Positions 25,165 through 28,882 of a stretch of DNA of 28,882 bases are shown one piece after another. Each line of letters begins with the position of its first letter. Position 1 is the first letter of the stretch. A program made the translations under genes and the position numbers. The notes under the pieces are model-generated. The model was not told where the DNA came from. It worked only from the letters and a program-made list of their open reading frames with translations, and searched no databases. Source of the stretch: a virus. The DNA lies in the IMG/VR virus record IMGVR_UViG_3300025122_000105, positions 1 through 28,882 of that record; one strand, written 5' to 3'.

Positions 25165-25320
25165 ATGCGAGTTTCGATGTTCGTCTATGTTGAGGACGCG
25201 GACCGGGAGCGTTTCAAGGCCGCGGCGGAGCGTGAGGGCCTGTCGCTTTCGGCGTGGATACGCCAGATAGCAAAGCGGGAGGCACGCAAGATGCCGCGTA
25301 GCATGGAGAGCGAGGCATGA
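25165..25320 (+). CDS. Ribbon-helix-helix DNA-binding protein, probable autorepressor
   Basis: The 51-residue protein has AAGGAGGT five bases before ATG 25165. It starts with one strand, MRVSMFVYV, then helix A (ADRERFKAAAEREG), a turn LSLS, and helix B (AWIRQIAKREARKM): the Arc/MetJ/CopG layout of strand-helix-helix, with Gly and Ser in the usual turn. Dimers bind the DNA major groove with the strand. It is the first gene of the operon and sits under a promoter with an overlapping palindrome, so it most likely represses itself and the genes behind it. The stop overlaps the next start (ATGA). Confidence 0.8.
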   Translation: MRVSMFVYVEDADRERFKAAAEREGLSLSAWIRQIAKREARKMPRSMESEA

Positions 25321-25586
25321 CGATTACGTACGTTCCTATGCTCACAGTCTACTACACGGTTGCCGAGGCCGCCAAGCTGAAGGGCGTTTCCCGGCAGTCG
25401 ATCTACAACGCGATCGACCAGGACCGGATTCGATCGGTTGTTCAGGGTGATCGGGCGATGGTTTTTTGTGACGCGAAGTTCGCTAAGTGGTTGCCAGACA
25501 GCAAGAAGCAGGCGGCAGGTAAAGTGGCTGCCGAAACCAGGAGGGCGCGAAATGCCAGACCAAAAGGTGCAGAGTGCGGAGGTTGA
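25317..25586 (+). CDS. Excisionase-like helix-turn-helix protein
   Basis: The 89-residue protein carries a MerR/excisionase-type winged HTH: YYTVAEAAKLKGVSRQSIYN at residues 12-31, then AIDQDRIRSVVQGDRAMVF, where the wing would be. The C-terminal tail is Lys/Arg/Ala-rich and may bind DNA non-specifically. Proteins of this shape serve as excisionases, phage regulators or replication cofactors. The start is coupled to the ribbon-helix-helix gene, and the end overlaps the next gene by 35 bases. No integrase is in the window, so an Xis role cannot be tested here. Confidence 0.75.
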   Translation: MTITYVPMLTVYYTVAEAAKLKGVSRQSIYNAIDQDRIRSVVQGDRAMVFCDAKFAKWLPDSKKQAAGKVAAETRRARNARPKGAECGG

Positions 25587-26175
25587 GCCTCTGGATGAGC
25601 GGTTTGTGACCGTCGAAGTGGAAGGGATCGGCGACGGCCTGCTCCTCCACGCGGTAGGAGATCCGGATTGGGATAAGCCCAAGGGCACAGGGAAGGCAAA
25701 GAAGCCGACAACGCACGACGAGTTCAAGTCGGCGCTCTACCGCGTGGAGAATGGAAGTTGCTACGTGCCGGCCATCATGTTCAAGAAATCCATGGTGCAA
25801 GGTGGCTGCCGGAAGGAGTTCGTTCGGAGCATGAGCAAAGTGGTAGGGAACATGCTCTTTCAGTGCTACGGCCCTGATCCTGAAGAGCGGGCATGGTCTT
25901 CGATTGAAGGTAGCAAGCCCGAGCCGCTGACGATGCCAGTGCGGAATCCCAACACGGGAAATTGGACCATGTGCACGCGGGCTTACCTTCCCCTGCCATG
26001 GACTGCGAAGTTCACGGTGCACTACCTCGGAGACGAGTTGGAGCTTCCGATTCTTCTCAAGATCATCAACAAGGCGGGTTTCCATGCGGGCATCGGGGCT
26101 TACCGTCGTGGCCTGAGTGGTCCCTATGGCGGATTCCGGCTCGTTCTTGGCCAGACGGCAGAATCGGATGTTTGA
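25552..26175 (+). CDS. Phage protein with RAMP-like sequence features, function unknown
   Basis: ATG 25552 is chosen because GGAGGGCGCG lies just upstream; an earlier in-frame start at 25438 lies inside the HTH gene. The 207-residue protein has a first strand (FVTVEVEGIGDGLLLHAV), a linker, then CYVPAIMFKKSMVQGG, resembling the (Y/F)-I-P-x-x-x-x-K-x-x segment of RAMP-fold proteins. It ends GFHAGIGAYRRGLSGPYGG followed by FRLVLG, resembling the Gly-rich GIGxxR...GxF end of that fold. Similar proteins occur in phages and conjugative elements without CRISPR loci; here I see no repeats or Cas genes. Possible roles include RNA or ssDNA binding. Fold assignment is a by-eye inference. Confidence 0.6.
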   Translation: MPDQKVQSAEVEPLDERFVTVEVEGIGDGLLLHAVGDPDWDKPKGTGKAKKPTTHDEFKSALYRVENGSCYVPAIMFKKSMVQGGCRKEFVRSMSKVVGNMLFQCYGPDPEERAWSSIEGSKPEPLTMPVRNPNTGNWTMCTRAYLPLPWTAKFTVHYLGDELELPILLKIINKAGFHAGIGAYRRGLSGPYGGFRLVLGQTAESDV

Positions 26176-26245
26176 GCACCTTGGCGGTCTCCCAGACGAG
26201 GTACAGCGGTACTTCAACGGACTAAGGGGGGTGCTATTAGCATGA
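26168..26245 (+). CDS. Coupled 25-residue micro-ORF
   Basis: ATG 26168 lies eight bases inside the preceding gene's 3' end, and TGA 26243-26245 overlaps the next ATG (ATGA at 26242). The peptide MFEHLGGLPDEVQRYFNGLR plus GVLLA forms a plausible short helix pair. It fills the otherwise empty 66-base gap exactly, which favours a coupled leader peptide that carries ribosomes to the DUF3037 gene. The same gap also holds AAGGGGGG as a ribosome-binding site for that gene, so the micro-ORF is not strictly required. Confidence 0.42.
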   Translation: MFEHLGGLPDEVQRYFNGLRGVLLA

Positions 26246-26823
26246 ACCAGAACGTCCATACCTTCACTGTCTTGCAGTACTATCACGACGCCGTGAGCCG
26301 TGAACGTTTCAATGTTGGGGTGGCTCTGCTCGCACCCGCAGCTGCGTTCTTCGACATCAAGCTCATCAGCAGGTACCATCGAATATCCAGGGCGTTCCCG
26401 AATTTGGATGGTGCTGCGTTCTTGCGTACGCTGAATCCTATTGCACATGAACTCCGTCAGCTGTGGAAAACAACGTCTGGTGGCCTTGGTTTCGAGCGCG
26501 TAGAAGGAGTCCGTCAGCTTACGGACCGCGTCTTGGTGCCAGACGATTCAGCATTGCAGTTCTCCGAACAAGGGGTAGGATTCGCCGACGACCCTGAGGA
26601 GGCACTGAGCGGACTATTTGAACGCTACGTCGAGAGGCATTGGAACACTCCGGCAACGGTGGGCCGTGATGACAAGGACGTCTGGCGCCTTTTCAGGGGG
26701 AAATTCGAAGCACAGGAGATCTTGTCCCACCTCAAGAAGCGCACGGTTAGGGGGCAGTACTACGCCCACGAATTTGAGCATACCTGGAATAACGGGATCC
26801 TTAACATCGAGGAGGCGGAGTAA
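26242..26823 (+). CDS. DUF3037 family protein
   Basis: The 193-residue protein opens with FTVLQYYHDAVSRERFNVGV followed by ALLAP, the signature of DUF3037 (YSxLxYxPDxxRGExxNVGV in most members). The central part is helical with RAFPNLDGAAFLRTLNPIAHE. A conserved R/Y-rich segment follows. In many bacteria DUF3037 genes sit beside HipA-like kinases; none is visible here. The protein is probably intact and is followed by the pentamer-phased repeat region. Biochemical function unknown to me. Confidence 0.78.
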   Translation: MNQNVHTFTVLQYYHDAVSRERFNVGVALLAPAAAFFDIKLISRYHRISRAFPNLDGAAFLRTLNPIAHELRQLWKTTSGGLGFERVEGVRQLTDRVLVPDDSALQFSEQGVGFADDPEEALSGLFERYVERHWNTPATVGRDDKDVWRLFRGKFEAQEILSHLKKRTVRGQYYAHEFEHTWNNGILNIEEAE

Positions 26824-26826
26824 GGC

Positions 26827-26988
26827 AAGTGGCGTAGTCTGGCGCGGGGTCTACTACAGTACGGTGCGGCAATGCAACGCAAGTGCAGTTGTGTTCTGTT
26901 GGGCCATGCGTAGTGCCGCTGTGTTCTGCAAAGCAAGTGGCGTAGTCTGGCGCGGGGTCCGCTACAGTACGGTGCGGCAATGCAACGC
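26827..26988 (+). repeat. Three 54-bp blocks of pentamer-phased repeat, non-coding
   Basis: Starting three bases after the DUF3037 stop, AAGT occurs at 26827, 26881 and 26935, each followed by exactly ten five-base units. All 30 units end in (G or C) then (C or T), and 26 end in G then C or T: for example GGCGT AGTCT GGCGC and GCAGT TGTGT TCTGT. Blocks 1 and 3 are near-identical (57 of 59 positions when flanks are included). Block 2 differs in sequence but keeps the 5-base phase. The pattern continues for three more units after block 3 (to 27003). The five-base phase does not fit codons, so a DNA- or RNA-level role is favoured. Confidence 0.85.
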
Positions 26989-27003
26989 AAGCCTTGTCGA
27001 GTC

Positions 27004-27064
27004 ACCCGTCGCCTGGTGTCGTCAAGCACTCTGCTCTAGGGTAACGTAATGTAAAGGTTTCGAG
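27004..27064 (+). other. Leader with three GTAAN pentamers before the next gene
   Basis: GTAAC GTAAT GTAAA occupies 27041-27055, ten bases before ATG 27065, and overlaps the only ribosome-binding-like stretch (AAAGG). It is a different pentamer from the upstream blocks but has the same five-base spacing, and may be part of the same element. I see no gene between 26824 and 27064. Confidence 0.55.
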
Positions 27065-27580
27065 ATGCCGAAAGTGACGTATTACGCAGCCGCAAGCGCC
27101 GGGTTCGATGATGCGAAAGCCGAGATTTACGGTAAGCGGCTGCAGGGCATCCATGAGCTTGAGAACGGGCTGCCCGCCGCCGCGGTAGTTGAATATGCCC
27201 GCGACAAGAAGGACCCGCTACATCCTCTGTTCGAGTGGAACGACACCAAGGCCGGCGAGTTGTATCGTCGGAACCAAGCAAGGCTTCTGATCAGAAGCAT
27301 CGAGCTTGAAATCAAGGGCATCCGGGTTCGCGCTTTTGAGAATGTAGTCTTGAGCGTGCAGCAGAAGGACAGCGACGAACTTAAGCCTGTTCGTCTATAT
27401 CTGGATCAGGCCACAGTTCACAAAGATCCGGATCTGCACGAGCAGACACTCCGGAAGGCTCTCGGGGCTTTGGTGCACTTCAGGAAGCGGTATTCATACA
27501 TGAAGGAACTTGGCCCCGTGATCAAGGCGATCGAGCAACTTGAACTCGAGATGGAATTAGTGCCACTTGTCGCAGGATAG
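27065..27580 (+). CDS. Conserved phage hypothetical protein
   Basis: The 171-residue protein contains RLQGIHELENGLPAAAVVEY, then DPLHPLFEWNDTKAGELYRR followed by NQARLLIRSI. This segment (PLHPxFEWxDxxAxxxYRxxQARxLI) is one I know from many phage and mobile-element hypothetical proteins of about this length. The rest has a strand VRAFENVVLSVQ and a C-terminal helix EQTLRKALGALVHFRKRYSY. No catalytic motif is apparent. It lies between two unusual non-coding elements and in an operon with nucleic-acid proteins, so a role in replication or recombination is conceivable. Confidence 0.72.
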   Translation: MPKVTYYAAASAGFDDAKAEIYGKRLQGIHELENGLPAAAVVEYARDKKDPLHPLFEWNDTKAGELYRRNQARLLIRSIELEIKGIRVRAFENVVLSVQQKDSDELKPVRLYLDQATVHKDPDLHEQTLRKALGALVHFRKRYSYMKELGPVIKAIEQLELEMELVPLVAG

Positions 27581-27893: not shown

Positions 27894-28154
27894 GTGACTT
27901 TAGCTGAAGCAACGGCAGAGATAGACAGGCTGGCTACGCCAATGGATGCACCGCCGCCGAAGGCGATCATCGAGCGTCGGCTGCGGCTGGTACAGGCGCG
28001 GTGGCACACGAAGCTGAAGTTTAACCTGATACCGATCGAGTGGCGGGAGCGCTGGTTCGTGCGGATGGAGAGGGCCAAGGAACAGCACAAGAAGCACGAG
28101 GCACGAGAGCGGCGCGACCGGGCACGGGAGAGGATGGAAGGCGATGTCGGATGA
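27894..28154 (+). CDS. Small charged hypothetical protein
   Basis: The GTG start has GAGGAG five bases upstream. The 86-residue protein begins TLAEATAEIDRLATPMDAPP, then a basic helix RRLRLVQARWHTKLKFNLIP, a short WRERWFVRM, and a strongly charged end (KEQHKKHEARERRDRARERM). It looks like a small RNA- or DNA-binding or adaptor protein, but I do not recognise it. Its stop overlaps the exonuclease start region (ATG 28144), so the two are translationally coupled. Confidence 0.65.
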   Translation: MTLAEATAEIDRLATPMDAPPPKAIIERRLRLVQARWHTKLKFNLIPIEWRERWFVRMERAKEQHKKHEARERRDRARERMEGDVG

Positions 28155-28882
28155 CAAGGTTCGGCTGGTAGCTTTCGACTGCGAGACGACGGGCCTGGAC
28201 GTGTACGAAGATCGCATCGTCGAGATCGCAATTCTTGAGTATCCTGACACGGAATTGCTCAATGTCCGTATCAAGCCCGACGTGAATATGACCGCTCAGG
28301 CGACTAAAGTCACGGGCATAACGGACGAGGACTTGTCCGACTTCCAGCCGTTCGCCTTTTGGGCAGAGTCAGCACAAAAGGCTATCGACGGGGCTATCCT
28401 GCTCGGGTATGGATCAAGGCGTTTCGATACCCTGATCCTGGACTCCGAGTTGCGGCGTGCCGGGCAGCCGGGTATCGACCTTGGGACGGTGCAGGAGATC
28501 GACCTCTACCGGGTGTGGACGGCGTGCGAGCCTCACACCCTGACGGGTGCCCTGCAGCGGTTCCTGGCGGTCGAGCACAGCGACGACGCCCACGGTGCGC
28601 TTCAGGACACGCGGCACCTGTTCGACCTTGCCACGACACTCTCCGAGGAGTTCGGGGTGGACCGCCATAAGATGATAGAACTGTCCAAGCCCGATGACGA
28701 GGCAGACCGGAGCGGCCGGCTGAAGCTGGACAGCGAGGGTGAGCCTATCTACAATGTTACGAAACACCGGGGGTCGCGCCTGAAGGACTACCCGGGGCTT
28801 ATCAAGTGGATGCTGGACAACGATTTCCCTGCGGACACAAAAAAGTACCTGCGCGAGTACCTCGCCAGGACGCAGAAAGAGC
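28144..28882 (+). CDS. DnaQ-like DEDDh 3'-5' exonuclease, 3'-truncated by the window edge
   Basis: Translation from ATG 28144 gives 246 residues before the sequence ends. Exo I is FDCETTGLD (Asp12, Glu14), Exo II is LLGYGSRRFDTLILD (Asp95), and Exo III is DDAHGALQDTRHLFDL (His150, Asp155): the DEDDh set of proofreading and RNase T-type exonucleases. After residue about 195 a new segment (YNVTKHRGSRLKDYPGLIK, then WMLDNDF) resembles the small DUF3820-type C-terminal domain often fused to phage DnaQ-like proteins. It would digest single-stranded 3' ends during replication or recombination. The frame has no stop before the edge. Confidence 0.9.
   Translation, partial: MSDDKVRLVAFDCETTGLDVYEDRIVEIAILEYPDTELLNVRIKPDVNMTAQATKVTGITDEDLSDFQPFAFWAESAQKAIDGAILLGYGSRRFDTLILDSELRRAGQPGIDLGTVQEIDLYRVWTACEPHTLTGALQRFLAVEHSDDAHGALQDTRHLFDLATTLSEEFGVDRHKMIELSKPDDEADRSGRLKLDSEGEPIYNVTKHRGSRLKDYPGLIKWMLDNDFPADTKKYLREYLARTQKE

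Follow-up and report, generated by a model that had tools for sequence, protein, structure and literature searches.

A probable VIPR guide-RNA array with a relaxed pentamer motif and four-base register marks in a viral genome sequence

The stretch of viral DNA analysed here, referred to as the window (28,882 nucleotides; IMG/VR record IMGVR_UViG_3300025122_000105), very probably contains at positions 26827-27052 a vrRNA array of a Viral Interference Programmable Repeat (VIPR) system, which would be read by the Vipr protein encoded upstream and would block transcription in competitors. VIPR systems are gene-silencing systems described in a preprint of April 2026 and consist of a Vipr RAMP, a vipr-accessory protein (vap) and vrRNAs. 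A vrRNA contains 9-16 YNNGG repeats and guides a RAMP filament to DNA by base pairing of its NN dinucleotides, one base of the target being passed over (PMC13142463). The initial annotation of the window had not recognised the array as a described element, a judgement that no longer stands because VIPR vrRNAs are described in this preprint. For relatives of the system, RNA co-purification, programmable repression, natural targets in satellites and prophages and a role in inter-phage conflict were reported (PMC13142463). The preprint distinguishes seven VIPR types and more than one array architecture, gives the repeats as 'GGY/NN motifs, or a related consensus', mentions 'staggered arrays with overlapping vrRNAs', names the accessory genes vap1-6 and describes a pseudoknotted 3' tail for the SUSP1 clade only, with other architectures elsewhere (PMC13142463). 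It has been proposed that CRISPR effectors descend from VIPR and that VIPR represents a minimal RNA-guided DNA silencer, and tail-less marked arrays with a relaxed motif bear on how the filament measures a guide and where a guide ends. The features of the locus are as follows:

25317-25586, plus strand: HTH_17 / excisionase-like regulator, directly 5' of vipr
25552-26175, plus strand: vipr, RAMP/Cas7-like, 207 aa, phrog_4652 family; the start codon is a prediction
26242-26823, plus strand: DUF3037 protein, 193 aa, between vipr and the array (Pfam DUF3037, E 4e-14)
26827-27052, plus strand: probable vrRNA (guide RNA) array of four GY/NNN blocks (HMM extent 26827-27056)
26827-26880, plus strand: vrRNA block 1, AAGT mark and 10 pentamers
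26881-26934, plus strand: vrRNA block 2, AAGT mark and 10 pentamers
26935-26988, plus strand: vrRNA block 3, AAGT mark and 10 pentamers, near copy of block 1
26989-27052, plus strand: vrRNA block 4, AAGC mark and 12 pentamers, followed by AAAGG
26989-26992, plus strand: four-base register-shift mark AAGY, counterpart of AGGY in relatives; the others start at 26827, 26881 and 26935
27065-27580, plus strand: putative vap, 171 aa, phrog_15946 family

The array is made up of 46 consecutive units, 42 of five and four of four bases, all of which end in [GC][CT] (39 of 46 in G[CT]), and base use at the free positions 1-3 of the 42 pentamers is approximately uniform. The three 54-bp blocks of AAGT plus ten pentamers that were seen initially at 26827, 26881 and 26935 were confirmed, and the phased units reported up to 27003 are present as well, but the pattern runs on from there to 27052 and forms a fourth block. 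Blocks 1 and 3 differ at two of 54 positions, both free and both in one pentamer (CTACT>CCGCT); these differences would be expected of two guides directed at variants of the same target but are too few to carry that claim (chance 0.35). Neither block 2 nor block 4 is a copy of block 1 or 3. The original proposal, that selection and not copying accounts for the spacing, was borne out. The GY phasing of block 2 was not equalled in any of 20,000 dinucleotide shuffles, and the SY phasing of block 4 was likewise beyond all 20,000. The phase signal also persisted against shuffling of the whole window: in the best stretch of 11 phased units all 11 fit GY, compared to no more than 9 in any of 100 shuffles of the window and no more than 7 of 11 elsewhere in it. 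Three additional units in phase (26812-26826) run across the stop codon of the DUF3037 gene; their phasing may be due to chance. The AAAGG after block 4 plausibly doubles as ribosome binding site of the gene at 27065. The predicted RNA fold of the array region (26805-27064) was no better than that of shuffles (z -0.20) and contained no 3' tail structure, a search of Rfam gave no match, and our searches returned no near-identical relatives of the array or of its two flanking genes.

Viral contigs were scanned for (GYNNN)x13 GY, i.e. fourteen GY at step five, and at least 120 stretches were obtained; some of those listed were simple repeats and many were long, non-repetitive arrays with two to three of five positions fixed. 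This search for phase-5 GY arrays, which had been suggested with the first description of the region, found them, mostly beside a phrog_4652 gene: clustering of the neighbouring proteins yielded one family of about 200 aa in 53 of 100 array loci, and an iterated HMM placed the phrog_4652 family in 89 of 122 array loci among those listed, including the window. In most loci the array either begins 0-20 nt past the stop codon of the phrog_4652 gene or ends just ahead of its start, and the repeat in most array loci reads GGYNN on the sense strand of this gene. When loci were instead fetched by protein alone (one clade with at least 52% identity to the query; 450 flanking bases tested), period 5 outranked all other periods from 3 to 9 at 65 of the 66 distinct Vipr loci obtained, and the sequence of the single exception ends at the gene. 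The array also adjoins vipr in all six kinds of cultured Vipr phage tested, the cultured carriers being Felixounavirus ESCO50, LESphi2, Medea1 and DSL-LC04 (these four found by tblastn), Gordonia phage Pipp and cluster-F mycobacteriophages.

Among the possible readers of the pattern considered initially, the most likely one is now an RNA-binding protein that covers five bases. This would be the RAMP/Cas7-like Vipr, which is encoded 0.65 kb upstream on the same strand. The window's vipr, for which the phrog_4652 match was obtained on a longer ORF, encodes a protein that matches the family HMM with E 7e-35, and the phrog_4652 family profile matches PDB entry 36pp, 'SUSP1 Vipr protein', with E 4.7e-41; Csm5 and Cas7-11 were only marginal matches of the same profile. 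When an AlphaFold2 (AF2) model of the window's Vipr (pLDDT 83) was compared with PDB, 61 entries matched at E<=0.001; the best 50 of these 61 were all CRISPR RAMP-containing entries (Csm3/Cmr). The predicted fold and the RNA-coating role would be shared with the RAMPs of CRISPR class 1 systems (Csm3, Cmr4/Cas7), whereas the step is a pentamer instead of six bases, sequence similarity is marginal, and neither a repeat-spacer array among the tandem repeats of the window nor a cas gene among the genes scanned around the array was found. Within its family the protein is very divergent, with a long branch and at most 29% identity to the other Viprs compared, and it groups with the phrog_15946-carrying clade with moderate support (82).

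Compared with VIPR type II (Escherichia phage SUSP1; Pseudomonas fulva prophage; PMC13142463), the window likewise has a Vipr RAMP gene, a small adjacent putative vap and, between genes, a tandem array of RNA pentamers in which some positions are constant and others hypervariable. Type II has 9-16 repeats per guide, and the blocks in the window comprise 11, 11, 11 and 13 units with the marks counted. The array is intergenic and on the same strand as vipr, though the DUF3037 gene intervenes. In contrast to the GGY/NN of type II, the consensus of the window is GY/NNN, which departs from a strict GGY and corresponds to the 'related consensus'; and in place of structured 3' tails, a feature of the SUSP1 clade, the window has head-to-tail guides that abut, with four-base AAGY marks between them. 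By BLAST, the putative vap of the window shows no similarity to the second gene of the SUSP1 type, and the inserted DUF3037 gene and the low Vipr identity further set it apart. The window is a divergent VIPR member with a relaxed motif and a tail-less marked array, features that, given the 'staggered arrays' and the 'related consensus' mentioned there, may partly be described already in PMC13142463.

Among the VIPR loci compared, HMM matches to phrog_15946 occurred exclusively in the window's Vipr clade. The AF2 model of the window's phrog_15946 protein reached a pLDDT of 90 and had no fold match in PDB at E<=0.001. The DUF3037 gene was not found in any other VIPR locus compared; its product is related to the candidate defence protein PDC-M66B (PADLOC E 1.5e-45), and no HipA-like partner gene was noticed in its vicinity. 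The HTH_17 / excisionase-like neighbour probably lies outside the VIPR system. The array had also been assigned to an operon with an exonuclease; the start of this gene lies 1.1 kb downstream of the array, and its presence near such arrays is not conserved. The DnaQ-like exonuclease frame occupies 28144-28882 and continues past the end of the window.

Four-base units are more frequent in the window's clade: 12 relatives contained 64 of them per 938 pentamers, compared to 17 per 5,564 pentamers in 73 other loci (odds ratio 22). AGGC or AGGT accounted for 46 of the 64 units in the clade, the spacing between marks was mostly 9-14 pentamers (mode 11), and the unit preceding a mark almost always ended in C, giving the consensus DWGGCAGGY. 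The counterpart in the window, AANGCAAGY, is read as the clade mark with one G replaced. The marked loci with a phrog_15946 vap (L119, L120, L096, L030, L060, L063, L049, L114, L064, Pipp, Gorge, Brocalys, Quico and ByChance) resemble the window in Vipr clade and/or vap family and in the four-base marks, and the order vipr-array-vap is common to the window, Pipp and L114. However, these relatives are without the DUF3037 gene, and all three positions of their constant motif (GGC or GGT in the main) are retained, whereas the window has lost one.

Family, fold, position and period together suggest that the copy in the window works like its relatives, and the following mechanism can be envisaged. 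The vrRNAs would be transcribed together with vipr, and one Vipr subunit would grip one pentamer via the constant GY, which is GGY in most relatives, whereby the RNA would become coated with a filament. The intervening, non-constant bases would remain available for pairing with DNA, where the target is gapped and takes up three bases per pentamer, and the bound complex would block transcription in a competing phage or satellite. One block of 10-12 pentamers would represent one guide. AAGY, which shifts the register by one base at the very point where the next guide would start, would constitute the guide boundary in the tail-less branch; we propose that the mark delimits guides and sets their ends because a filament stepping in fives cannot stay in phase across it, the ends being fixed at the mark either by processing or by a stop of assembly. 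The third free base of GY/NNN may be unread, or it may pair with the target base that GGY/NN systems skip; since a pentamer corresponds to three target bases, the geometry allows both. Only tentatively, we consider that in tail-less guides the AGGY/AAGY shift acts as a comma, at which the filament stops or restarts or the RNA is cut, and that a GY/NNN guide, itself noncontiguous, may read three bases per pentamer on a contiguous target.

The first base of GGY is free in the window (about 0.14 bits). While most array loci profiled are GGY/NN, GY/NNN with a free first base also occurred in L042, L069, L086, L021 (and near copies), L081 and L095. On the Vipr tree, loss of the first G was scattered, with seven changes for seven rows, and a grouping of the GY/NNN arrays as one lineage was rejected on this ground; from its distribution the loss looks like a repeated relaxation. 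CGC/NN (L033, L016, L078, L118) was clustered on the tree, and the other constant motifs observed were GAC/NN (L056), GTC/NN (L032), TGT/NN (L008) and AGY/NN (L055, L106). In L042 (1101-1460) and L033 (6322-6952; both in coordinates of the vipr sense strand), guides are set apart by a repeated spacer of similar form (around ATTC, TTTATG and TTTC), a likeness that spans two different constant-motif classes.

A decayed or decoy VIPR array, the guides of which no longer have a target or the RNA of which only titrates the Vipr of another phage, is an unlikely alternative, although it fares best among those considered. It would account for the lost first base of GGY, for the near identity of blocks 1 and 3 and for the fact that no target was found in the collections scanned. 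Exact gapped targets were absent for block 4 from viral and genome contigs and for blocks 1 and 3 from viral contigs. Block 2 gave one gapped match with 20 of 20 fixed bases, in a prophage of Pasteurella bettyae, where it lies within a tail-assembly gene (L128/L129 148-176, minus strand), the skipped base being the codon wobble position. This match was rejected as a target and is probably due to chance, since about 0.5 such matches are expected in the genome contigs by our own estimate for 20 fixed bases, 257 billion bases and two strands, the third free base agrees in only 3 of 10 cases, and the G+C content is 39% as opposed to 60% in the window. BLAST against phages with all free triplets as a contiguous target gave a best E of 7, cross-targets among the array loci compared showed no clear excess under rules skipping 0-3 bases when the circular block 2 hit was omitted, and guides of the cultured mycobacteriophages yielded nothing above background against parts of Che8, Tweety and Giles and the loci compared. 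Decay is, however, difficult to reconcile with the ending kept in all 46 units, with the intact frames of vipr and vap and with the recurrence of first-G loss in otherwise intact loci.

The initial annotation had further offered a protein that touches DNA on alternate faces at half-turn steps. A DNA-level element of this kind, such as a nucleoid, partition or packaging site, would fit the intergenic position and a period of about half a helical turn, but it is very improbable: with the four-base marks the mean step is 4.9, which drifts from the 5.25 bases of a half turn, the orientation of the arrays strictly follows vipr, a RAMP-fold protein adjoins them, and in relatives they are transcribed and bound as RNA (PMC13142463). 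Translation into a protein of 18-residue repeats, for which an open frame spans the array (+2 frame, ORF 26618-27049), can practically be dismissed, because this frame overlaps the conserved DUF3037 gene, the constraint has period 5 and not 3 or 15, in agreement with the non-coding nature assumed at the outset, and gp43 of Pipp, annotated over a homologous array, is probably a similar mis-annotation.

Cultured relatives in phages of Mycobacterium smegmatis and Gordonia terrae make the clade accessible to experimental tests. Gordonia phage Pipp carries vipr (gp42), a marked array and vap (gp44), and gp43, which is annotated over the vrRNA array (L127 2724-2993), is probably not a protein gene. 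Marked arrays are also present in the cluster-F mycobacteriophages Gorge, Brocalys, Quico and ByChance, among which both number and content of the guides vary; a check of the number of blocks among relatives had been suggested initially. In Mycobacterium phage Gorge, vipr appears to be split over two frames and fused to vap in one gene of 405 aa (gp54, L126 2152-3369), an arrangement that suggests a frameshift. In Brocalys, Quico and ByChance, the upstream gene and vap are annotated separately.
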